NCBI GenBank assembly: GCA_030531085.1
Contig: JAUNOM010000018.1
Coordinates: 1-49,520 of the forward strand
From: Prevotellaceae bacterium
GTDB taxonomy: Bacteria > Bacteroidota > Bacteroidia > Bacteroidales > Bacteroidaceae
DNA: 49,520 bases
Direction: 5' to 3'
Each line of letters begins with the position of its first letter. Within the stretch, counting starts at the first letter, position 1. Shown in pieces: positions 26,562-41,983 of this stretch. Both the position numbers and the translations under genes were made by a program. A model generated the notes under the pieces. It saw only the letters and a program-made list of their open reading frames with translations. It was not told the origin of the DNA and did no database searches.

Positions 26562-28811
26562 TTAGATTCTGTATACCTTCTGCATTCCGTTAATTGTCTC
26601 GAGCTGGGAGATGATATCCCCAAGGTTTGAGTTGTCCCTGACCTTCAGCTCTATCTCCGCACTGAATACTCCATCTTCTGTGTTGGCGGTAATTCTGTGA
26701 ATGTTGACATCAAACAGGTCGGACAGCATTACGGTGACATCCTTCACCATTCCCTTTCTGTCAATTCCCTTCATGGCGATGCGGGTCATGAAGCTCATCT
26801 CGCCCCTCATGTTCCATGTGGCCGCCAGCACCTTCGTCCCGAAGGAGGACTTCATCTTTGCGGCCTCTATACATGAGCGTGAGTGTATCTCAACCTGGTT
26901 GAGATTGTTTATCAGCCCCAGAATCGGGTCGCCGGGAATAGGCATACAGCAGCCGGGGAACTTGTAATACTGTATGTTGTCCTCCGTTATAGTTATCGTC
27001 TGGTTGCGGTCAAAGTCCTTGCCTACGGTTATGTATTTGTTTGCAGGATCATTCTTCGTGCTCTTGGGCTTGACGAACGGAATGAACTTCCTCCATCCCT
27101 TGCCGCGGTGGCTCGCCTTCTGTTTCTTGAACTTATTATATATAATGTCAAGATCGCTCTCGCCAAGCGTGATGTTTCCTTTGGCGATGTCGATGAGCAT
27201 ACGGTCATGCAGCTTGATATTATGCGCCTCGGACAGCTTGTCCATTATGGACGTTGTCAACGTGAGTCCGTTCTGCTCCAACCACGCCGTGAGCTTCTCA
27301 TTTCCTTCTTTTGCCAGCTCCCTGTCACGCTTGCGCAGCAGCGCCTGAATCTTGTTCCTTGCCTTTGCAGTCGTGACAAAGTTGGTCCATATAGGCTGGA
27401 CGTGCTGTGAGTTTGATGTTATGATCTCTACCTGGTCTCCGCCCTTCAGCTTATGTGAAAGGGGCACCAACTTATGGTTTACCTTCGCACCGATGCAGTG
27501 GGTTCCGAGGAATGTGTGTATCTGGAAGGCATAGTCCAGCGCGGTGCAACCTGCGGGCATCGTGATGATGTCACCCTTTGGCGAGAAAACGAAAATCTCT
27601 GACGCGAAAAGGTTGAGCTTTATGGCATCGAGGAAGTCCATTGCGTCGGGCTGTGGGTCGTCCAGAATCTCCTTGATCGTCCTCAGCCATCCGTTCAGCT
27701 CGTCCTCTGCCACGCGCTCCGTGTTCATCGGGTCCTCGTCAGTCTTGTACTTCCAGTGCGCCGCAAATCCCTGCTCCGCAATCTCGTCCATTCTTTCAGA
27801 GCGTATCTGCACCTCTATCCAGCGTCCCTCCTTACTCATCAATGTGACGTGCAGCGCCTGATAGCCGTTGGCCTTAGGGTGCGACAGCCAGTCCCTCAGT
27901 CTGTCGGGATGAGACTGGTAGAGTTTGCACAGCTCCACATAGATATTGAAGCATTCCTTTACCTCATCATCCTTTGTCTTGGGCTTGAAGACGATGCGGA
28001 CTGCAAGAATGTCATATATCTCATCAAACGACACGTGCTTCTTCTGCATCTTGTTCCAGATGGAGTAGGGGCTCTTTATCCGCGCCTTTATCTCGTAGTT
28101 GACACCATTCTTGTCAAGAACCTCTTTGATTGGAGTCGTGAAACTGTCAAAAAGATGCTCACGCTGCTCATGAGTGTACGAAAGTTTCTTCTCTATGGCT
28201 GCGTATACCTCGGGATGCTCATATTTGAATGACAAATCCTCCAGTTCCGTCTTTATCTGATTTAAGCCTAACCTGTTTGCCAGCGGTGCATAGATGAAGA
28301 GCGTCTCTCCAGCTATCTTATACTGTTTTTGTACAGGCTGCTTGTCAAGATGGCGCATATTGTCAAGGCGGTCACATATCTTTATGAGAATGACACGTAT
28401 GTCCTCGCTCATAGTGAGAAGGAGTTTCTTGAAGTTCTCCGCCTGCTCTGACGCCTTGTCGCCGAATATGCCTCCCGCAATCTTTGTCAGGTCGTCTACA
28501 ATCTGCGCAATCTTATCGCCAAAGATGACCTTTATATCATCTATTGTATAGTCACTTTCTTCTATAACGTCATGTAACAATGCCGCACAGATGGAAGTGC
28601 TGCCTAATCCCATTTCCGCTGACACAATTGTGGCAACAGCAATGGGATGCATCATATATGGCTCACCGGAAGGCCTGCGCATATTCTTTGTAGCGTTCAA
28701 AGCGAAGTTGAAAGCTTTTTGTATGACGTCAACTTTCTTACGGTGATTGGATTTTGTGTAATGCTGCAACAGCCTGTTGTAGGCTTCCTGTATTTTCTCT
28801 TCCTCTTCCAT
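26562..28811 (-). CDS. rel: Bifunctional-type RelA/SpoT (p)ppGpp synthetase/hydrolase
   Basis: The 749-aa protein has the full long-RSH layout: HD hydrolase domain (about 40-190), synthetase domain (about 230-360, with RIKSPYSIWNKMQKK, YDILAVRI, GYQALH and EVQIRS), TGS domain (about 390-450), helical and zinc-finger-like region (PGCCMPIPGD), and C-terminal ACT domain. Hydrolase residues H55, H80-D81 and E84 are kept, but the usual D of HDxxED is E85, and DRLHN is DRLDN (150). It controls the stringent response. It closes the par-DUF5683-mltD-rel block typical of this group. Confidence 0.93.
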   Translation of the reverse strand: MEEEEKIQEAYNRLLQHYTKSNHRKKVDVIQKAFNFALNATKNMRRPSGEPYMMHPIAVATIVSAEMGLGSTSICAALLHDVIEESDYTIDDIKVIFGDKIAQIVDDLTKIAGGIFGDKASEQAENFKKLLLTMSEDIRVILIKICDRLDNMRHLDKQPVQKQYKIAGETLFIYAPLANRLGLNQIKTELEDLSFKYEHPEVYAAIEKKLSYTHEQREHLFDSFTTPIKEVLDKNGVNYEIKARIKSPYSIWNKMQKKHVSFDEIYDILAVRIVFKPKTKDDEVKECFNIYVELCKLYQSHPDRLRDWLSHPKANGYQALHVTLMSKEGRWIEVQIRSERMDEIAEQGFAAHWKYKTDEDPMNTERVAEDELNGWLRTIKEILDDPQPDAMDFLDAIKLNLFASEIFVFSPKGDIITMPAGCTALDYAFQIHTFLGTHCIGAKVNHKLVPLSHKLKGGDQVEIITSNSQHVQPIWTNFVTTAKARNKIQALLRKRDRELAKEGNEKLTAWLEQNGLTLTTSIMDKLSEAHNIKLHDRMLIDIAKGNITLGESDLDIIYNKFKKQKASHRGKGWRKFIPFVKPKSTKNDPANKYITVGKDFDRNQTITITEDNIQYYKFPGCCMPIPGDPILGLINNLNQVEIHSRSCIEAAKMKSSFGTKVLAATWNMRGEMSFMTRIAMKGIDRKGMVKDVTVMLSDLFDVNIHRITANTEDGVFSAEIELKVRDNSNLGDIISQLETINGMQKVYRI

Positions 28812-28860
28812 AGTATAGAACCATTTTAGTTTGAGGTAACTTTAAGCCTTAACATATAAA

Positions 28861-30351
28861 TTATTTGACCTTGAGCTTCTTTCCTGCACGTATGTTACTG
28901 CCGGAAATGCCATTGAGCCTCTTGAGTTTTGCAACTGTTGTACCGTTACGCTTTGCTATTCTCTCAAGAGTGTCACCACTCTTAATCGTTACAGTACGTC
29001 CGCCACGGCTGCTACGCTTTTTCCTGCTTGTTCTCTTTGTGGTCTTTTTTGACTTTACAGTGGAACTGCTGCGTGTCTGTCTGTATGCCGGAGCATTATC
29101 ATTGACAACAACAAGGTCACGCTTCATCAAATGATCCACATTATATGCTAAAATGGAGTCCTCATTGGCTATATATTTGGAGATGTATTCAACAGGCAGT
29201 CTGAGATCAGTCGGCTCCGTGTATCCCGTCACAAAATCTCTACGATATTGGGGGTTCAGGGCTCTCAATTCATCCATTTCTATTCCCAATACACTGGAAA
29301 TCTGTTCAAAATGAACATTCTGATACAACATTATCGTATCCGTCTGTACAGGCAGAGTCGCAAGCATAGGACAGATGTTATGCTCACAATAATAGTTCAT
29401 AATATAATTTGCCGCTATAAACGCAGGTACATATCCTCTTGTCTCTGTTGGCAGATAAGGATATATCTGCCAATAATCCTTCACTCCTCCTGCACGCTGT
29501 ATAGCTTTCTGAATATTCATCGGACCGGCGTTATATGCCGCAATAACCAAATTCCAGTCCTCAAATATGGCATACAGGTCACTCAGATAATGCGCTGCGG
29601 CGTATGAGGCCTTTACTGGATCACGTCTCTCGTCTATCATAGAGTTGAGTTTCAAGCCATATCGCTTTCCTGTGGCGGCCATAAACTGCCATAAACCGGT
29701 TGCACCGACTCTGCTGACGGCATTTGGGTTAAGCGCTGATTCTATTACAGGAAGATATTTTAGCTCCAACGGCAGCCCATACACCTCAAGAGCCTGTTCA
29801 AATATGGGCATATAGAAATTGGAGGCGCCAAGCATATAGCTCACCGAGCGTCTCAACTTTCCGCTATACCTGTCTATGAACTTCTGAACAACATCATTCC
29901 ATGGCATCTCCATGGCGGTAGGCATTCTCTTTAAACGGTCTACATATATATCCTGTGAGAATACGGGGTTCACATCACGCATCTTACAGGTTGTATCAAG
30001 TGTAAGGTATTGTTTTGCGTTATATTCCGAGATTGTCTTTTCCATATCGACAATCATACCCTCTGGCACCTCGATGATTTCCTCTTTACCATCCTTGCCG
30101 TTTATGACAATCTCCTCATTGTCACTGTCATAGAAGTCATTTGCCTTGTCGTCGTCTTCACTTTCGACTTCTTCCTCACCATCTTCTTCCTCCTCCTCGT
30201 CATTATCCGTTGTTTTTGGGGAAGCTGTATCATTATCATCCATCCTTTGTGACAAGAAGGTGGAGGCCATAACATTATTTATATAATAAGGTGTTGCGCC
30301 TAAAGCGAATATAGTTAAAATAGCAAATAATTTATTTCTATATATAGTCAT
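28861..30351 (-). CDS. mltD: LysM-containing lytic transglycosylase (MltD-like)
   Basis: The 496-aa protein begins with a signal or anchor segment and has an acidic stretch (about 40-81, runs of D/E). The SLT domain has catalytic E204 (PVIESALNP), GLWQFMAATG and YNAGPMNI. A single C-terminal LysM domain (about 450-496, SGDTLERIAKRNG...AGKKLKVK) is preceded by a Lys/Arg/Ser-rich linker. It cleaves peptidoglycan glycan strands in the periplasm. It lies 27 nt after the DUF5683 gene and 49 nt before rel, in a conserved Bacteroidetes cluster. Confidence 0.9.
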   Translation of the reverse strand: MTIYRNKLFAILTIFALGATPYYINNVMASTFLSQRMDDNDTASPKTTDNDEEEEEDGEEEVESEDDDKANDFYDSDNEEIVINGKDGKEEIIEVPEGMIVDMEKTISEYNAKQYLTLDTTCKMRDVNPVFSQDIYVDRLKRMPTAMEMPWNDVVQKFIDRYSGKLRRSVSYMLGASNFYMPIFEQALEVYGLPLELKYLPVIESALNPNAVSRVGATGLWQFMAATGKRYGLKLNSMIDERRDPVKASYAAAHYLSDLYAIFEDWNLVIAAYNAGPMNIQKAIQRAGGVKDYWQIYPYLPTETRGYVPAFIAANYIMNYYCEHNICPMLATLPVQTDTIMLYQNVHFEQISSVLGIEMDELRALNPQYRRDFVTGYTEPTDLRLPVEYISKYIANEDSILAYNVDHLMKRDLVVVNDNAPAYRQTRSSSTVKSKKTTKRTSRKKRSSRGGRTVTIKSGDTLERIAKRNGTTVAKLKRLNGISGSNIRAGKKLKVK

Positions 30352-30377
30352 TGTTTTATATTGTTGTTGTTTAAGTT

Positions 30378-31115
30378 TCAGAATGTAAGTGCTCCCTGCA
30401 CACCGATAGCGGAATTACTTAGTCCCATCCCTGATGTGACGTTTGGATTGTTGTTGCCGCTACGCTGCGCACCATTTATTATAGCCGGTTGGATACGCAT
30501 ACTAAGATCATCAGAGATGTCAAATTGTGATAAAGACGCATCCACATAGGCATCAATGATGGATAATGCGTAAACACCAAGCATACAGAAGAAACTCAAA
30601 TCTCTCCATCTGCGGTATTTGTCTTTACGTGATTTGAAGATTCCCTTGTAACGTTCTTCGTTTTGTGCATTTATCTGCGACCCTAAATGTAAAAACTGAT
30701 TGTAACTTTTTGTATTAGGATCATCATCCATGATATCAAGATAAGCCTGCGAATAATCCAGATACATCTGATTATTCCATCTCATAGCGTATGCACATCC
30801 CAAGAAGCCACCATATATAATAGGCAGCTTCCAATATTTTCTGTTATATATCTGTCCCGCTCCTGGCAGTACAATGGCCAACCACATGGCTCTTTTAGGG
30901 TCAGGCTTCCATGTAGTCCAGTTTTTTTTCGCCTTCTTCTCTATCTTTGCCAGTTGGTGTTCTTCTGTCTTAGACAATGTCTGCATCTTTATGTCTGTAG
31001 AATCACCATGTGATATAACCAAAGAGTCTTCGCTGCTGGCCTGTGCATGAGTGGCTATCGTTGCCATACAACATACGAGAAACAGTATTGACCTTATATT
31101 TTTTAGGTTCAGCAT
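30378..31115 (-). CDS. DUF5683-type membrane protein
   Basis: The ATG at 31115 (245 aa, MLNLKNIRSILFLVC) gives a clean signal peptide ending near THAQA; a GTG at 31142 would add nine residues. After a charged segment, the motif PDPKRAMWLAIVLPGAGQIYNRKYWKLPIIYGG is typical of DUF5683, with two or three membrane segments. The function is unknown. The gene is regularly found between parB and mltD in Bacteroidetes, suggesting a cell envelope or division-related role. Confidence 0.8.
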   Translation of the reverse strand: MLNLKNIRSILFLVCCMATIATHAQASSEDSLVISHGDSTDIKMQTLSKTEEHQLAKIEKKAKKNWTTWKPDPKRAMWLAIVLPGAGQIYNRKYWKLPIIYGGFLGCAYAMRWNNQMYLDYSQAYLDIMDDDPNTKSYNQFLHLGSQINAQNEERYKGIFKSRKDKYRRWRDLSFFCMLGVYALSIIDAYVDASLSQFDISDDLSMRIQPAIINGAQRSGNNNPNVTSGMGLSNSAIGVQGALTF

Positions 31116-31162
31116 CAGCCCAACTTTATATTTTTCGTTCACACATTGATTAGCATTGTCAT

Positions 31163-32047
31163 TTAAACCTTGTCAAGGAATATAAGTATACGTTCCAGTT
31201 CCTCGTCAGAGGCGAATGGAATGGTGATCTTGCCTTTTCCTTTTGCAGAACAGATCATTTGCACCTTTGTATTGAGTTTTTCAGATATACGGTTTCTCAA
31301 CACTTCATACTCTTCAGGGAGTGATGACTTCCCATGCAGAGTCTTTGTGGCAGTCTTTACATCCTCCCCGTTGTTCAGGATGTTCACCATTTCCTCTACC
31401 TTCCTTACGGAATAGCCATGCTTCATTATTTCTTTAAACAGTCTTATCTGCATGGACGGTGACTCCAATGCCAACAGTGCGCGTGCGTGTCCCATATCTA
31501 TCTCCTTTTTCTGGAGAGCCAACTGTATCAGCGCCGGCAACCTAAGCAGCCTAAGATAATTCGCAATGGCAGCACGGCTCTTACCCACACGTTCTGACAC
31601 CTTCTCCTGTGTCATTCCGTCATTATCTAAAAGATGCTGATAGGCCAGCGCTATCTCTATGGCATTAAGATCCTCTCGCTGGATATTCTCAACCAACGCC
31701 ATCTCCATCACACTCTCATCACTGATGGTGCGTATATATGCAGGTATGGCCTTCAGTCCAGCTATCTGCGATGCCCTCCAGCGCCGCTCACCTGCTATAA
31801 TCTGAAAATGATTATCCTCTACATGTCTTAAAGTTATAGGCTGGACTATTCCTATCTCCCTTATGCTTGACGCAAGTTCCTGAAGCGCCTGCTCATCAAA
31901 TTCCCGTCGTGGCTGATTAGGATTAGCCTCAATAAGTTCTATCGCTATCTCATTTATAGTGGAGGAGCCTTGTGGACGTATTTCTTCCGTTGATATAAGG
32001 GCATCAAGTCCCCTGCCTAAAGCATTGTATTTTTTATGTACAGCCAT
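31163..32047 (-). CDS. parB: Chromosome-partitioning protein ParB
   Basis: This 294-aa ParB/Spo0J-family protein has the CTP-binding N-terminal domain (EANPNQPRREFDEQAL, AGERRWRAS), a helix-turn-helix region (MTQEKVSERVGKSRAAIANYLRLL) and a C-terminal dimerisation segment. It binds parS sites and loads onto DNA as a CTP-dependent clamp. No canonical parS (GTTNCACGTGNAAC type) was seen in this window. It is 69 nt downstream of parA. Confidence 0.95.
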   Translation of the reverse strand: MAVHKKYNALGRGLDALISTEEIRPQGSSTINEIAIELIEANPNQPRREFDEQALQELASSIREIGIVQPITLRHVEDNHFQIIAGERRWRASQIAGLKAIPAYIRTISDESVMEMALVENIQREDLNAIEIALAYQHLLDNDGMTQEKVSERVGKSRAAIANYLRLLRLPALIQLALQKKEIDMGHARALLALESPSMQIRLFKEIMKHGYSVRKVEEMVNILNNGEDVKTATKTLHGKSSLPEEYEVLRNRISEKLNTKVQMICSAKGKGKITIPFASDEELERILIFLDKV

Positions 32048-32116
32048 TATTCTGTTGTTTATATCGTTTTTCTCATGAAATCATCACTGTTGATTATTTC
32101 ATGGACAGCACATTGT

Positions 32117-32896
32117 TCAGTTTGCCTCTCTATTCACTATTTCCTTTGCTAATGCAAGATAATTCTTCGTTCCTGCTGCATCGGCATCGTAAAGTATCAC
32201 GGGTAGTCCGTGACTTGGGCATTCTGACAACTTAACATTTCGTTGTATCACAGTCTTGAATACCAGTTCCTGGAAATGCCTTTTCACTTCATCATAAATC
32301 TGGTTTGCCAGTCTGAGACGGTTGTCATACATTGTAAGGAGGAAACCTTCTATCTCCAGTTTCGGGTTCAGTTTCGTCTTTATTATCTTTATCGTATTAA
32401 GCAGCTTCCCGATTCCCTCAAGTGCGAAATACTCACATTGTACTGGTATAATAACAGACTGCGCAGCTGTCAGAGCGTTTACAGTTATCAATCCGAGTGA
32501 AGGAGAACAGTCTATAAGTATGTAGTCATAGTCCATCCTAATTGGCTCAAGCATATTCTTAAGCACCTTTTCACGTTGAGGAATAGTGAGCATCTCTATT
32601 TCCGCTCCTACCAGATTAATGTGACTTGGGATTATGTCAAGGCCGTTTATATCTGTTGTATAAATGGCATCCCTAACATCTGCGTGGTCAATGATACATT
32701 CGTATAACGAGCATTCCACGTCCTGTATGTCCACTCCAAGCCCACTTGAGGCATTAGCCTGAGGATCTGCGTCTATTACAAGTACTGACTTTTCAAGCGT
32801 AGCGAGTGAGGCGGCAAGGTTTATGGTTGTTGTGGTCTTGCCTACGCCGCCTTTTTGGTTAGCCAGGGCTATGATCTTACCAAGTTTATTGTCCAT
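32117..32896 (-). CDS. parA: Chromosome-partitioning ATPase ParA (Soj)
   Basis: The ATG at 32896 (259 aa, MDNKLGKIIALANQ) is chosen because it places the deviant Walker A box KGGVGKTT at residues 15-22, as in Soj proteins; upstream in-frame residues are not conserved. DADPQANASSG and DCSPSLG are the other ATPase motifs. It works with ParB in origin segregation. It heads the parAB-DUF5683-mltD-rel block, with a probable -7 element (TAACTTTG) at 32979-32986. Confidence 0.95.
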   Translation of the reverse strand: MDNKLGKIIALANQKGGVGKTTTTINLAASLATLEKSVLVIDADPQANASSGLGVDIQDVECSLYECIIDHADVRDAIYTTDINGLDIIPSHINLVGAEIEMLTIPQREKVLKNMLEPIRMDYDYILIDCSPSLGLITVNALTAAQSVIIPVQCEYFALEGIGKLLNTIKIIKTKLNPKLEIEGFLLTMYDNRLRLANQIYDEVKRHFQELVFKTVIQRNVKLSECPSHGLPVILYDADAAGTKNYLALAKEIVNREAN

Positions 32897-32978
32897 TTTT
32901 GTTGCGTTTAGAAAGTTCGCTGGCAACAACACTTGATATGATATTGTCAGCAGACACATTTTGTATACAAAATCATTG

Positions 32979-35607: not shown

Positions 35608-36561
35608 ATGGGCATATTCGGTTTTTTCAACAGAGAAAAAAAAGAGACTCTCGACAAAGGGTTAGAGAAGACGAAGCAGAGCGTCTTTGACAAAATCACA
35701 CGTGCGATAGCAGGTAAGGACAAAGTTGACGATGATGTTTTGGACAATTTGGAGGAAGTGCTCATCACAAGCGATGTGGGCGTGGATACCACATTGAAAA
35801 TCATAGAGCGTATAGAAGCGCGTGTTGCAAGGGACAAATATGTCTCAACATCTGAACTGAACCGCATACTTCGCGAAGAGATAGTGACACTTCTGACAGA
35901 AAATAATTCTTCTGATACAGACTCATGGGACTTGCCTACAGAACATCGTCCATACGTTATTTTAGTAGTAGGCGTTAACGGCGTAGGCAAGACAACAACT
36001 ATCGGTAAACTGGCATGGCAGTTTAAAGAAGCTGGCAAGAAAGTGTATCTTGGAGCGGCGGACACATTCCGTGCCGCAGCCGTAGAGCAGCTGTGTATAT
36101 GGGGAAACAGGGTTGGAGTTCCTGTCATAAAACAACAGATGGGCTCGGATCCGGCAAGTGTGGCATTTGATACTTTGGCTTCAGCAAAGGCGAACAATGC
36201 GGATGTTGTCATTATAGACACAGCGGGCAGACTGCATAATAAAGTAAATCTCATGAATGAATTGAAGAAGGTAAAAGACGTTATGAGAAAAGTACTGCCG
36301 AAAGCCCCCGATGAGGTCTTGCTGGTTCTTGATGGCTCTACAGGACAAAATGCTTTTGAACAGGCCAGACAGTTTGCCGCAGTAACTCAAATAAGCAGTC
36401 TTGCCATCACCAAACTGGATGGAACAGCTAAAGGTGGAGTAGTGGTTGGTATAAGCGACCAGTTGAAAGTTCCTGTGAAATATATAGGACTCGGTGAAGG
36501 AATGCGTGACTTACAGTTGTTCAACCGTCGGGAGTTCGTTAACTCTTTATTTGGAGAATAA
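35608..36561 (+). CDS. ftsY: Signal recognition particle receptor FtsY
   Basis: The 317-aa SRP-type GTPase has the NG domain: P-loop GVNGVGKT at 122-129, DTFRAAA at 152-158, DTAGR at 204-208 and TKLDGTAKGG at 268-277. The long acidic A domain of E. coli FtsY is absent; only a short basic N-terminus (MGIFGFFNREKKE) remains, which could bind the membrane. It receives ribosome-SRP complexes at the inner membrane. It is the first gene of a long plus-strand run ending with galM. Confidence 0.96.
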   Translation: MGIFGFFNREKKETLDKGLEKTKQSVFDKITRAIAGKDKVDDDVLDNLEEVLITSDVGVDTTLKIIERIEARVARDKYVSTSELNRILREEIVTLLTENNSSDTDSWDLPTEHRPYVILVVGVNGVGKTTTIGKLAWQFKEAGKKVYLGAADTFRAAAVEQLCIWGNRVGVPVIKQQMGSDPASVAFDTLASAKANNADVVIIDTAGRLHNKVNLMNELKKVKDVMRKVLPKAPDEVLLVLDGSTGQNAFEQARQFAAVTQISSLAITKLDGTAKGGVVVGISDQLKVPVKYIGLGEGMRDLQLFNRREFVNSLFGE

Positions 36562-36616: not shown

Positions 36617-37921
36617 ATGATAAAGCATATCGACATAATTACAATGGGCTGCTCTAAAAACCTTGTTGACAGTGAGACTTTACAACGTCTGTTCACAAAG
36701 CGTGGCTATAGTTGTTCTGTTGATGCAGAGGTGATAAAGGGAGACACGGTGGTGATAAATACCTGTGGCTTCATTGGAGATGCGAAGGAGGAGAGCATAA
36801 ATACTATTCTGGAACTTGTGCAAGCAAAAGAGGAAGGTAGAATACAGCGCCTTTTCGTTATGGGATGCCTGTCACAACGATATAAGGAAGACCTGCAGAA
36901 AGAGATTCCACAAGTTGACAAGTATTATGGCAAGTTCGATTATAAGGCACTTGTTGATGACCTTGAGGTATTATATGGAAAAGCTCAGGTCGTAACAGCA
37001 AATACAATAACAAGAAAGGCAAGAAAGCACTACTGTTACATAAAGATATCAGAAGGATGTGACAGACATTGTGCATACTGTGCCATACCTATCATAACAG
37101 GCAAACATAAAAGCCGTACTATTGACGATATTCTTGACGAGGTAACGGTCAGAGTCAGTGAAGGAGTGAAGGAGTTTCAGATAATAGCTCAGGAACTGAC
37201 TTATTATGGTATTGATATTGACGGCAAACGACATATCGCAGAACTGATAGATCGCATGGCAGGGATAAAGGGAGTCAAGTGGATAAGACTGCATTATGCC
37301 TATCCTAACCAATTCCCAATGGAACTGCTCGATGTGATACGTAAGCATTCTAATGTATGCAAGTATCTTGACATTGCTTTACAGCATATATCTACATCCG
37401 TACTGAACAGAATGCGTCGTAATACGACAAAGGAAGAGACCATGGAACTTATCACACGGTTAAGAAAGGAGGTTCCAGGTATAGTGCTTAGGACAACACT
37501 GATGGTTGGATATCCTGGAGAGACGGAAGAGGAGTTCCAAGAACTGATAGAATTTGTAAAATGGGCACGTTTTGAGCGTATGGGTGCATTCGCCTATTCT
37601 GAAGAAGAGGGAACATATAGCGCAGAACATTATAAGGACGATGTGCCGGAGGAGATAAAGCAGAGAAGGTTGGATAAACTGATGCGCGTACAGCAGAACA
37701 TTTCTGAGGAACTGCTCCAACAGCGTATAGGACAGACAGTGAAGGTTATAATAGACCGAAAAGAAGGAGACTGGTATGTAGCACGTTCCGAATATTCGTC
37801 ACCAGATGTTGATCCGGAAATACTTATCAGCACGGATGGTAAAACTCTAAGAAAGGGATGTTTCTATAACGCGAGAATTACAGGTAATGAAGAGTTTGAT
37901 TTATATGGCATTGTAGAGTAG
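36617..37921 (+). CDS. rimO: Ribosomal protein S12 methylthiotransferase RimO
   Basis: The 434-aa radical SAM methylthiotransferase has an N-terminal MTTase domain with cluster cysteines C12 (MGCSKN), C50 (NTCGFI) and C84 (MGCLSQ), radical SAM CxxxCxxC at C148, C152 and C155, and a C-terminal TRAM domain. The SKNLVDSE motif is typical of RimO rather than MiaB. It adds a methylthio group to an Asp of S12. It lies 55 nt after ftsY and 15 nt before the HU gene. Confidence 0.95.
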   Translation: MIKHIDIITMGCSKNLVDSETLQRLFTKRGYSCSVDAEVIKGDTVVINTCGFIGDAKEESINTILELVQAKEEGRIQRLFVMGCLSQRYKEDLQKEIPQVDKYYGKFDYKALVDDLEVLYGKAQVVTANTITRKARKHYCYIKISEGCDRHCAYCAIPIITGKHKSRTIDDILDEVTVRVSEGVKEFQIIAQELTYYGIDIDGKRHIAELIDRMAGIKGVKWIRLHYAYPNQFPMELLDVIRKHSNVCKYLDIALQHISTSVLNRMRRNTTKEETMELITRLRKEVPGIVLRTTLMVGYPGETEEEFQELIEFVKWARFERMGAFAYSEEEGTYSAEHYKDDVPEEIKQRRLDKLMRVQQNISEELLQQRIGQTVKVIIDRKEGDWYVARSEYSSPDVDPEILISTDGKTLRKGCFYNARITGNEEFDLYGIVE

Positions 37922-37936
37922 CTTTACAACATACAG

Positions 37937-38224
37937 ATGAATAATAAGGAATTTATAACTACATTGGCACAGAAAACAGGTTACAAGGTGGAAGATACGC
38001 AAAACATAGTAAGGACAACCGTGCATACTATTATTGACTCCCTTGTAGATGGAGACAGTGTCAGCGTATCTGGATTAGGAAGCTTTGAGGTAAAGAAAAG
38101 AATGGAACGCATCATAACAAACCCAGGAAATGGACAAAAGATGCTGGTTCCTCCAAAACTTGTTGCTAATTTCAAGCCTTTTGCCACTCTGAAAGAAAAG
38201 GTAAAGGAGAGTGAGAAGAAATAA
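37937..38224 (+). CDS. HU-family DNA-binding protein
   Basis: The 95-aa protein has the HU/IHF fold: an N-terminal helical dimerisation region, VSGLGSFEVKKR, then the DNA-binding arm region with NPGNGQKMLVPP in place of the usual NPxTGEx. A lysine-rich C-terminus follows. It bends and compacts DNA. It directly precedes a second, membrane-spanning HU-domain protein (32-nt gap), so the two are probably co-expressed. Confidence 0.92.
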   Translation: MNNKEFITTLAQKTGYKVEDTQNIVRTTVHTIIDSLVDGDSVSVSGLGSFEVKKRMERIITNPGNGQKMLVPPKLVANFKPFATLKEKVKESEKK

Positions 38225-38256: not shown

Positions 38257-39447
38257 ATGGTAACAGTAAAAGACATAGCAAAAATTCTTGTCGCCAAGCA
38301 TAAATTATCTAATGCCGAGGCTGAGATTTTCATACAAATGATTGTCGAGGTTGTTCACGAAGGACTACTGCGTGACCGGCAAGTAAAAATAAAAGGTTTC
38401 GGAACATTCAAACTGCAAGCCATGAAAGAGCGTAGCAGCGTGAATGTTAATACTGGAGAAAAGGTTCTTATCGGTGAACATGATAAGATTACATTTACCC
38501 CAGACAATGTGATGAAGGATTTGATAAACAAACCCTTTGCACAATTTGAGACTGTACCTATAAACGATGGCAGTCCACTACTTGATAATAGTTCTCTGTC
38601 TGATACTGACACAGAAGAAGATGCAGAGACTGTAACAGAGGTTAAAGACATTACAGAAGAGAATACCATTAACATTCCAAACGAGAGTTATATTGTCAAA
38701 CCACAAACAGAGATATTTCCTACAGAAGAGGATATACCGACACCAAATATAGAAGAAAAAGAGGAAGTACCTGAGGTTGAAACTTCTGAAAGTCAGGAAA
38801 TAGAAAAGGAAGAAGCTCCCATTGAAACCGAGACTGTAGACTATCCTCAAGAAGAGGCCAAAAGTGTGACAGAGTCAGAATGTGAACAGCAATATCCTCA
38901 TTGCCATAATGTATTCTTATATTATGCCATAATAATAAATATTGTAGTCGCAATATCTGCGTTTACTCTCGGATATATGGCAAGCAGTCAGCAGTGGTTT
39001 GTAGAAGAAATGGCTGAAGCGAATACACAACCTAAGGTAGACAATAGGAATGTGGCGCAACAGAAACAGCCGACAAGCAAACAGGCTGATACAACTAAGA
39101 ATACAGCAAAGCCTGCGACAGAGAAAACATTGAAAGACTCCACTGTGTCCGCTAAGAATACAGCCTCTACAGTAAAGAACAAGCGTAATACAGACTCCTT
39201 AAAGGAAGAGAACATAGAGAATCAATATAATGATGATGTCAGAGTACGTACAGGAGCCTACAATATTATAGGTATAGACAAAGAGGTTGTTGTCAGACAA
39301 GGGCAGACCATACAGTCTATCAGCCGCACTTATTTGGGTGAGGGGATGGAGTGCTATATAGAAGCATTAAACGGTAAGACAACAGTAAAGGCAGGTGAAA
39401 AGATTAAGATACCGAAGTTAAAGCTCAAGAAGCGTAAGCATAGCTAA
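38257..39447 (+). CDS. HU domain - transmembrane - LysM fusion protein
   Basis: The 396-aa protein has three parts. Residues 1-95 are an HU/IHF-like domain (VKIKGFGTFKLQ; NVNTGEKVLIGEHDKITF in the arm). Residues 100-210 form a linker rich in Glu, Thr and Pro. Residues about 219-242 form a single hydrophobic helix (VFLYYAIIINIVVAISAFTL). A Lys/Thr/Ala-rich spacer follows, then a LysM-like domain at about 345-389 (VVRQGQTIQSISRTYLG...GEKIKIPKL) and a basic tail. If the N-terminus is cytoplasmic, the HU domain could hold DNA and the LysM domain peptidoglycan. The function is not established here. Confidence 0.85.
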   Translation: MVTVKDIAKILVAKHKLSNAEAEIFIQMIVEVVHEGLLRDRQVKIKGFGTFKLQAMKERSSVNVNTGEKVLIGEHDKITFTPDNVMKDLINKPFAQFETVPINDGSPLLDNSSLSDTDTEEDAETVTEVKDITEENTINIPNESYIVKPQTEIFPTEEDIPTPNIEEKEEVPEVETSESQEIEKEEAPIETETVDYPQEEAKSVTESECEQQYPHCHNVFLYYAIIINIVVAISAFTLGYMASSQQWFVEEMAEANTQPKVDNRNVAQQKQPTSKQADTTKNTAKPATEKTLKDSTVSAKNTASTVKNKRNTDSLKEENIENQYNDDVRVRTGAYNIIGIDKEVVVRQGQTIQSISRTYLGEGMECYIEALNGKTTVKAGEKIKIPKLKLKKRKHS

Positions 39448-39502: not shown

Positions 39503-41983
39503 ATGACGAAATTCAACAGCATGATGGCACAGGATTCTGCTTTCCACATGTTTGCAGAGTTTGATGGCGATATAAACAAAATATACGAGCAGGGTAAAGA
39601 AGGGGAAATGCCGATACTTATAACAAGAAACATGGTCAGCTTTCCCGGTGTACTCACCTCTGTGACAATAGCCAGACCTGTAACCAAGCAGTTGGTTAAA
39701 TATATAGAGAAGAATCCCAACCAGCAGTTCGCCATGTTCTGCCAAAAGGATCAGACAATAGAGGAACCAGGTGTGGAGGATCTTTGTAAATATGGTGTAA
39801 TAGCGAAATTTCTAAAAGTCTTTGAAGTTCCTGGGACAGAACCTCGTTACGCATTTGTAGCACAGGCACTCACACGTTGTGAGATACAGGATGTGGTAAA
39901 GGAGACACCGTTTATGTGGGCTCATGTATTACCTGCGCCGGAGATTATGCCAAACAAAGACGACATGGAATTTGACACAATTGTTAAGGATTTAAGGAAA
40001 AGGGTAAGGGAGTATATAGACAAGAGCGACACTTTGCCATTCGAACTGCAAATGTCATTACACGGCATAGAGGATTCTTCATTCTACGTGAATATGGTTT
40101 CATACCATATACCCATTCCCCTAACAGAGAAAATGGCCCTATTGGAATTTGGGGATTTAAAATTGCGCGCTTTAAATCTGTTACAGATAATGAACCGCGA
40201 GATACAGTATGCTAATCTTAGGCTTGATATACAAAACAGGACTCAGCATACTATTGATGAAGAACAGAAAAACTATTTCCTCCGCCAGCAGATAAAAAGC
40301 ATAACAAAGGAATTAGGTGGGGATGAACGTGGAACAGAGGTAGAGAAGATAAAGAACAAAGCTGCAAAGAAAAAGTGGAACGATGAGATAAAGCAGGCTT
40401 TTGAACGAGAACTGGAAAGATTAAACCAGATGCATCCGCAAAGCAGCGACTATAATGTGCAGCTTAACTATCTCAACCAACTTATAGACTTACCATGGGG
40501 ACTATATACTACAGACGATCTTGACCTAAAGAAAGCCAAGAGGACTCTGGATAGAGATCATTACGGTATGGAAGAGGTAAAGCAGCGCATTTTGGAATAT
40601 ATAGCGGTGCTTTCATTAAGAGGTGATCTCAAATCTCCCATATTATGCCTATACGGTCCTCCGGGTGTTGGAAAGACTTCTTTGGGTAAAAGCATCGCTG
40701 ATGCGCTTGGCAGATCTTATGTAAGGGTCAGCCTTGGTGGCGTGCACGACGAAGCCGAAATACGCGGACATCGCAGGACGTATGTAGGAGCCATGCCCGG
40801 ACGTATAATAAAGAGTATAGAGAAGGCTGGCACCTGCAATCCTGTATTTATTCTTGACGAGATAGACAAGGTTACTCAGACCACCATGAATGGTAACCCT
40901 GCCTCCGCCTTGCTGGAAGTACTTGACCCTGAACAGAACACCGCATTTCACGACAACTATCTTGATTTAGACTTTGATTTGTCAAAGGTCATGTTCATTG
41001 CAACCGCTAATGATATAAGCACCATTCCCGGCCCTTTACGTGACAGGATGGAGATGATAGAAGTTGGAGGCTATACTACCGAAGAGAAGATAGAGATAGC
41101 AAAGCGGCATCTTTTACCACGTGAGAAGGACAAGACGGGACTGAAGGAGGAGAAAGGATTGTCCATACGTAAGAACGCGATAGAGAAGATAATTGAGCGG
41201 TATACCAGAGAAAGTGGTGTGCGTCAGTTAGAAAAGCAGATAAACAAAGCCTTACGCAAACTCGCTTACTATAAGATGCGTGACGGAATCCTGCCTTATG
41301 AGCGGATTACACCTGATAATTTGGAGGATTTGCTTGACAAGCCGCCATTCTACCGTGACATTTACCAAGGCAATGATTATGCTGGAGTTGTAACCGGACT
41401 GGCATGGACAAGTGTCGGTGGTGAGATTCTGTTCATAGAGACAAGTCTTTCCAAGGGCAAGAATGGAAAACTAACACTTACGGGTAATCTTGGCGATGTC
41501 ATGAAGGAGTCCGCCGTAATAGCACTGGAGTATGTAAAGGCTCATGCAGACCTTCTGAAGATAGACTACCGCATATTCGATAACTGGAACATACATATTC
41601 ATGTACCAGAGGGAGCCACTCCAAAGGACGGCCCGTCGGCAGGCATCACCATTGCAACAAGTATCGCATCAGCTCTGACGCAGAGGAAAGTACGCAAGAA
41701 TGTAGCCATGACAGGCGAAATAACCCTTAGAGGAAAAGTGCTTCCTGTTGGTGGCATTAAGGAGAAGATTCTCGCAGCAAAGCGTGCTGGCATTACTGAT
41801 ATTCTATTATGTAAGGCTAACAACAAGGACATAGATCAGATTCCCGCAGATTATCTAAAAGGTGTAACTTTCCATTATGTTGAAAACATTGCGGATGTAT
41901 GGGACTTTGCCCTTACTGATGAGATTGTGGACAATCCTATCGATTTTACGATAGAAGAACCGCAGCAAAACGAAGGAAAATAA
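39503..41983 (+). CDS. lon: ATP-dependent protease Lon
   Basis: The 826-aa LonA protein has an N-terminal substrate-binding domain (about 35-245), coiled linker, AAA+ module with Walker A GPPGVGKT (385-392) and Walker B VFILDEID (448-455), and a C-terminal protease domain with the catalytic dyad S712 (KDGPSAG) and K755 (GGIKEK). It degrades damaged and regulatory proteins. It follows the HU-LysM gene by 55 nt. Confidence 0.97.

Follow-up and report, generated by a model that had tools for sequence, protein, structure and literature searches.

The window studied here, one continuous stretch of 49,520 nucleotides from a Prevotellaceae genome, contains an open reading frame, confirmed as real, for a protein in which an HU/IHF-type domain, an acidic linker, a single membrane helix, a second linker and a LysM domain follow one another in one polypeptide (Table 1). 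The gene for this HU-TM-LysM protein begins 32 nt after the end of a gene for a small soluble HU, and the neighboring genes in the window are ftsY and rimO upstream and lon downstream.

Table 1. Features of the window discussed in the text, with three proteins encoded elsewhere that are compared with them.
Feature	Position	Strand	Basis or remark
HU-TM-LysM protein, 396 aa	38257..39447	+	ORF and domain searches
HU/IHF-type domain, residues 3-91	38263..38529	+	PF00216, E 5e-19
Acidic Glu/Thr/Pro-rich inner linker, residues 96-218	38542..38910	+	Net charge about -32
Single membrane helix, residues 219-237	38911..38967	+	Hydropathy 2.23
Outer linker, residues 238-344, approximately neutral	38968..39288	+	Sequence and model
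LysM domain, residues 345-386 by Pfam	39289..39414	+	Pfam, family profiles and model
Small soluble HU, 95 aa, with arm-tip proline, proposed partner	37937..38224	+	PF00216, E 8.2e-24
rimO	36617..37921	+	NCBIfam TIGR01125; its end lies 15 nt upstream of the small HU
ftsY	35608..36561	+	NCBIfam TIGR00064
lon, local neighbor only	39503..41983	+	NCBIfam TIGR00763
parA	32120-32959	-	Window
parB	31166-32047	-	Window
In-frame fusion of small HU and HU-TM-LysM, 567 aa	L076:5674-7374		Two PF00216 stretches
Tail variant	L098:5995-6852		HU-TM with Arg-rich tail replacing LysM
HU-CCDC81_bac tandem and SPOR protein, 350 aa	L152:1477-2526	-	Contig C34 of the window's genome

The N-terminal domain has the HU fold by profile, scoring 68.8 bits against PF00216, for which the Pfam cut-off is 22.4, and its best relatives in the PDB are IHF and HU chains, down to an E value of 5.9e-10. 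The arm tip carries V64 in place of the intercalating proline that is usual for HU and typical, although not defining, of PF00216, and the net charge over residues 1-92 is +3. The layout was surveyed in a first set of 31 proteins, which comprises the 30 best-scoring loci of the genus and family plus the window and is not a random draw. HU domain, acidic linker, one helix and LysM were kept in all 31, with inner linkers of 91 to 265 residues and charges from -12 to -72, and with a hydropathy of 1.49 for the weakest helix. PF00216 matches every member of alignment A1, which holds 26 of these proteins. The HU/IHF-type domain, the acidic Glu/Thr/Pro linker and the single membrane helix that a preliminary description of the locus had read from the letters are therefore borne out.

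The C-terminal end had likewise been described as LysM-like, and this was upheld by evidence other than Pfam alone. PF01476 matches the window protein at E 0.044, with 14.2 bits against a gathering score of 20.9. The LysM fold is backed by family-level profiles and by an AlphaFold2 model, in which residues ~335-390 form a beta-alpha-alpha-beta domain and the last ten residues of the outer linker already lie within it. Escherichia coli Kbp was found by VIA among the structure matches of the LysM model, where scores below 8 may reflect merely a common arrangement. Peptidoglycan binding is not universal among LysM folds, Kbp being an example.

Within the genus, the protein was matched in 52 of 60 genomes at E <= 0.001 (32/32 of the good genomes), and within the family in 93 of 101 (70/73 of the good genomes), some of these matches being to ordinary HU only. 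The best 80 of at least 577 confirmed stretches in the named scan come mostly from Prevotella, Hoylesella, Segatella, MAGs and other Prevotellaceae. Occurrence is patchy across the order, where 49 of 198 genomes were matched at E <= 1e-8 and at least 29 genomes besides the window's carry a locus with a long open reading frame (L122-L150); the HU arm of three of these (L148-L150) gives a poor alignment, and in many of the 29 the LysM is followed by a further C-terminal stretch. At the level of the phylum, 36 of 296 genomes were matched at E <= 1e-12. These are the window, two relatives, 30 genomes of f131, a family in another class, and three with small HUs only. The f131 proteins that were read (L155-L181, from 27 of the 30 f131 genomes, which were listed with a long open reading frame) have an HU domain, an acidic linker, a helix and a LysM-like end. 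L113, which runs into a contig end, L076 and L042 are left out of some of the counts below. By eye, many of L123-L150 share a conserved-looking stretch after the LysM, Y-x-I-D-A followed by S-V-x-K-A-K, which is absent from the window protein.

The orientation of the protein in the membrane was assessed from the residues around the helix. A segment above hydropathy 1.5 follows the HU domain in 134 of 137 relatives and in 27/27 f131 proteins. The 12 residues on the N side of the helix contain 2.43 Lys plus Arg on average, and those on the C side 1.37; the N side is the higher in 91 of the 137 and the lower in 20, and in 132 the inner linker has the greater negative charge per residue of the two linkers, all of these being counts on related, hence not independent, proteins. 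Inspection by eye gave no sign of a signal peptide in the HU-TM-LysM protein. For the family, the charge bias around the helix indirectly supports an arrangement with HU inside and LysM outside. The window helix has no Lys or Arg within 15 residues on either side, so the topology of the window protein rests on its relatives, from which we infer the same arrangement and propose that the inner linker is cytoplasmic. The earlier placement of the HU part inside is thus favored by the positive-inside bias among relatives, but the window helix itself adds nothing to it.

That the gene lies right after that of an ordinary HU had also been pointed out, and this adjacency proved to be nearly invariant. 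The small HU is directly upstream in 31/31 first-set loci, adjacent in 108 of the 110 loci L041-L150 (in which L121 is the window again and L042 repeats L004) and adjacent in 27/27 f131 loci; no small HU was found beside the membrane HU gene of L150. In L076 the two genes are fused in frame, giving a protein with two HU domains and a PF00216 score of 136.1 bits, although the fusion is known from one MAG contig and might result from a base error. The other neighbors vary. rimO precedes the pair in 31/31 first-set and 79/79 close-relative loci, and ftsY does so in the 66/66 close-relative loci with enough flank. At the order level (at least 29 loci), rimO matches in 9 of 29 and the small HU in 28 of 29, and in f131 the 1.5-kb flanks of the pair gave no match to rimO, ftsY or lon, other open reading frames lying around it in the loci inspected. 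lon lies within 500 bp downstream in just 11 of 75 close-relative loci and was rejected as part of the unit. Of the genomic context originally noted, ftsY and rimO thus hold among close relatives and lon does not. Since the pair is kept across classes while rimO, ftsY and lon vary, the constant unit is the small HU together with the HU-TM-LysM protein.

The window also contains, at 26562-32959 on the minus strand, a block made up of parA, parB, DUF5683, an SLT/LysM lytic transglycosylase and RelA/SpoT. The start of parA lies 3.7 kb from rimO and 5.0 kb from the small HU, ahead of both. A link between HU-LysM and parAB was considered and rejected, because the two are far apart or on other contigs in 15 chosen genomes: parB and HU-LysM are ~0.6-1.5 Mb apart in the eight single-contig genomes (shorter way round, rounded), on different contigs in six, and 1.4 Mb apart on the same contig in the last (G139). 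Their nearness in the window is therefore local. A search of the window with a B. subtilis-type parS consensus gave 0 matches with up to three mismatches.

The relationship between the two HUs was explored with a FastTree tree of 204 HU domains. The tree separates 103 membrane HU domains (76 from Bacteroidales and 27 from f131) from 100 small HUs and the genome's other HU with support of 0.958; it is unrooted, is based on short domains with a single outside HU, includes one in four of L041-L120 and leaves out L076, L113 and L148-L150. The small HUs group with support of 0.882, one of the 73 from Bacteroidales falling outside the rest, and the Bacteroidales membrane domains alone group at just 0.368. 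On sequence evidence, the small HU and its membrane counterpart are paralogues of long standing whose genes have stayed adjacent, and the simplest reading would be one duplication before the classes separated, the pair having remained together since. In a mirror-tree comparison of the 53 loci with all five genes, the distances of the small HU and the membrane HU correlate with a partial r of 0.417 after removal of rimO and ftsY (Mantel p 0.001). The small HU and ftsY give 0.384 when rimO is taken into account, so the mirror-tree offers modest support for contact. The mixed dimers suggested in the preliminary description are indirectly favored by this modest correlated evolution, by the near-invariant adjacency and by the one in-frame fusion.

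Several known systems resemble the HU-TM-LysM protein in part. None of the papers listed from the open-licence PMC literature deals with an HU-LysM protein. Burroughs and colleagues reportedly described, in 2017, HU-CCDC81_bac - TM - SPOR fusions in Bacteroidetes and proposed for them a role in chromosome partition; their Pfam domains are PF18174, PF18175 and PF05036. These fusions share with the window protein HU-type domains, a hydrophobic segment and a C-terminal peptidoglycan-binding domain, but have two divergent CCDC81-type HUs instead of one PF00216, and SPOR instead of LysM. In the window protein there is no PF18174, and PF18175 reaches E 0.0043 with 17.3 bits against a cut-off of 35, which is not the tandem CCDC81-type HU; SPOR gave no match at E <= 1. 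PF18175 matches 14 of 26 relatives at E <= 0.01, and the fused L076 protein, with its two HU domains, passes the cut-off at 39.4 bits. The window's genome also encodes an HU-SPOR protein (L152, Table 1), whose hydrophobic segment is seen by eye. Both types thus coexist in one genome, which fits the initial remark that HU-SPOR fusions are known and that the HU-TM-LysM layout is different.

HubP/FimV provides a second comparison. These proteins combine a LysM in the periplasm, a single membrane helix and a strongly acidic region in the cytosol, and HubP affects the position of the chromosome 1 origin through its interaction with ParA1 (PMC8789113, PMC12918733). The window protein likewise has a LysM, one helix and an acidic region across the helix, the sides of the membrane being those deduced above. 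It differs from HubP/FimV, where the domain order is reversed, a TPR/FimV domain stands at the C terminus and DNA is reached through ParA, whereas the window protein has a DNA-binding fold within the chain itself. No FimV or TPR family was found in it at E <= 1 in Pfam and NCBIfam, and a weak TPR_21 match (E 0.0055) occurs in one of 26 relatives. The HU-TM-LysM protein is a member of neither group, and it probably works like both HubP/FimV and the HU-SPOR fusions.

The third comparison is with HU and IHF themselves, which in bacteria are soluble. The N-terminal domain is a PF00216 HU, and the adjacent, diverged pair of subunits may be likened to IHF alpha/beta. Unlike HU and IHF, this domain is part of a membrane protein, is near neutral and, in Bacteroidales, mostly lacks the tip proline.

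We propose, with a probability of about 0.55, that the window protein forms the membrane-bound half of an HU module made of two proteins, in which an anchored HU and its soluble partner tie DNA to the membrane and wall. The membrane HU domain would lie in the cytoplasm and dimerize, most likely with the neighboring soluble HU and possibly with itself. The dimer would bind DNA of the nucleoid largely irrespective of its sequence, the acidic, presumably disordered linker would space it from the membrane, and the helix would fix the membrane HU in the inner membrane. Outside, the LysM may hold the protein to peptidoglycan, which would give DNA a loose attachment to a fixed site in the envelope. 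The interpretation offered in the preliminary description is thus supported in part, with its tethering role still a proposal.

How DNA would be gripped can be approached from the arm tips and charges of the two HUs. HU and IHF insert an arm-tip proline into DNA; on the H. pylori HU arm-tip proline, nothing was found in the open-licence PMC literature. In profile-aligned Bacteroidales HU-LysM proteins the arm tip is Val or Ile in 133 of 138 (1 Pro, 1 Glu and 3 gaps), and in the Bacteroidales small HUs it is Pro in 133 of 134 rows, which include the window's twice (L003 and L121). The membrane HU domain has a mean net charge of +0.67 in 109 close relatives and -0.17 in 29 order-level ones, and the small HU one of +5.27 over the 134 rows. 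With a near-neutral membrane HU mostly devoid of the tip proline, most of the grip on DNA in Bacteroidales would therefore come from the soluble partner, and the tether would thus be adjustable by the amount of partner.

The same pairing of a near-neutral domain, mostly without tip proline, with a basic, proline-bearing HU, as well as the near-invariant adjacency of their genes and their correlated evolution, would also be expected if the membrane HU were a dimerization adaptor and not a DNA binder, capturing the small HU to sequester it, position it or recruit it to the wall or division site. We consider this unlikely. The alignment of 26 members shows no variation at K44, K46, K52 and R59, and in f131 Pro is retained at the arm tip of 27/27 membrane HUs, as it is present in 27/27 small HUs. 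The small HU there is no more basic than the membrane HU, the mean net charges being +0.22 and -0.11. As both f131 HUs are near neutral, the charge contrast is limited to Bacteroidales. The other full HU of the window's genome (L034, contig C34) has Ile at the arm tip instead of Pro, and proline loss therefore does not exclude DNA binding; proline loss was rejected both as a mark of the family, since f131 retains the residue, and as a disproof of DNA binding. An adaptor would, furthermore, merge with the tether if the captured HU still binds DNA.

For the two-protein HU module, the contribution of the LysM end can be judged from its conservation. The first LysM profile matches the HU protein itself in 31/31 first-set loci and in 75 of the 80 loci L041-L120, 63 of whose proteins went into building it. 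The misses are L113, cut by the contig end, and four close homologues (L098, L099, L107 and L110) that lack LysM and carry instead an Arg-rich tail after the helix. These four are 63-67% identical to the window protein over the matched N-terminal part, and no LysM-like open reading frame was found elsewhere in their loci. A second profile, made from more distant ends, matches 29/29 of L122-L150 and 27/27 of f131, many of the matched proteins, including 18 from f131, having been used in building it. The window-side profile A2 gave 0/27 direct matches among f131 proteins; the NCBIfam LysM model matches one of them (L155) at 4.9e-6, and Pfam LysM passes E 0.01 in one of the five f131 proteins scanned.

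The four tail variants indicate that the outer part is exchangeable. It could then be that anchoring HU in the membrane is what matters, the periplasmic part being an interchangeable handle and peptidoglycan binding dispensable. The sub-threshold Pfam score of the window LysM is compatible with this, and so is the mirror-tree comparison, where LysM distances are uncorrelated with those of the HU parts (-0.056 for the small HU). The breadth of the profile matches, even with many of the proteins having helped to build the profiles, speaks against it, and we consider it very unlikely. About equally unlikely is an envelope-sensing regulator, in which LysM would read the wall and HU, possibly once set free by proteolysis, would alter transcription or the bending of DNA close to particular promoters: long, variable linkers and a single-pass layout known from membrane-bound regulators suit such a role, but HU domains are weakly specific and the inner linker varies widely in length. 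For the tether formed by the two HUs, the near-neutral HU domain, the absent tip proline and the four LysM-less relatives weigh against its simplest version.

In Bacteroidota, which are prominent in the human gut flora, little is known of how the chromosome is held or moved. A direct link between DNA, membrane and wall within one polypeptide, with a soluble partner encoded next to it, offers a concrete and easily deleted candidate, for which the HU-SPOR protein found in the same cell could serve as a comparison. It is tempting, although this goes further than we would be ready to assert, to see in Bacteroidota a dedicated heterodimeric HU, with a soluble subunit and a wall-fixed membrane subunit, that couples DNA to peptidoglycan in one step, that predates the split of the classes and works in parallel with a second, HU-TM-SPOR tether of that cell, and whose wall-binding part is exchangeable. 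Such a module would be a case in which HU, usually free in the nucleoid, has been taken into service as a fixed structural element, with labor divided between a basic subunit that bears the proline and an anchored, neutral one.
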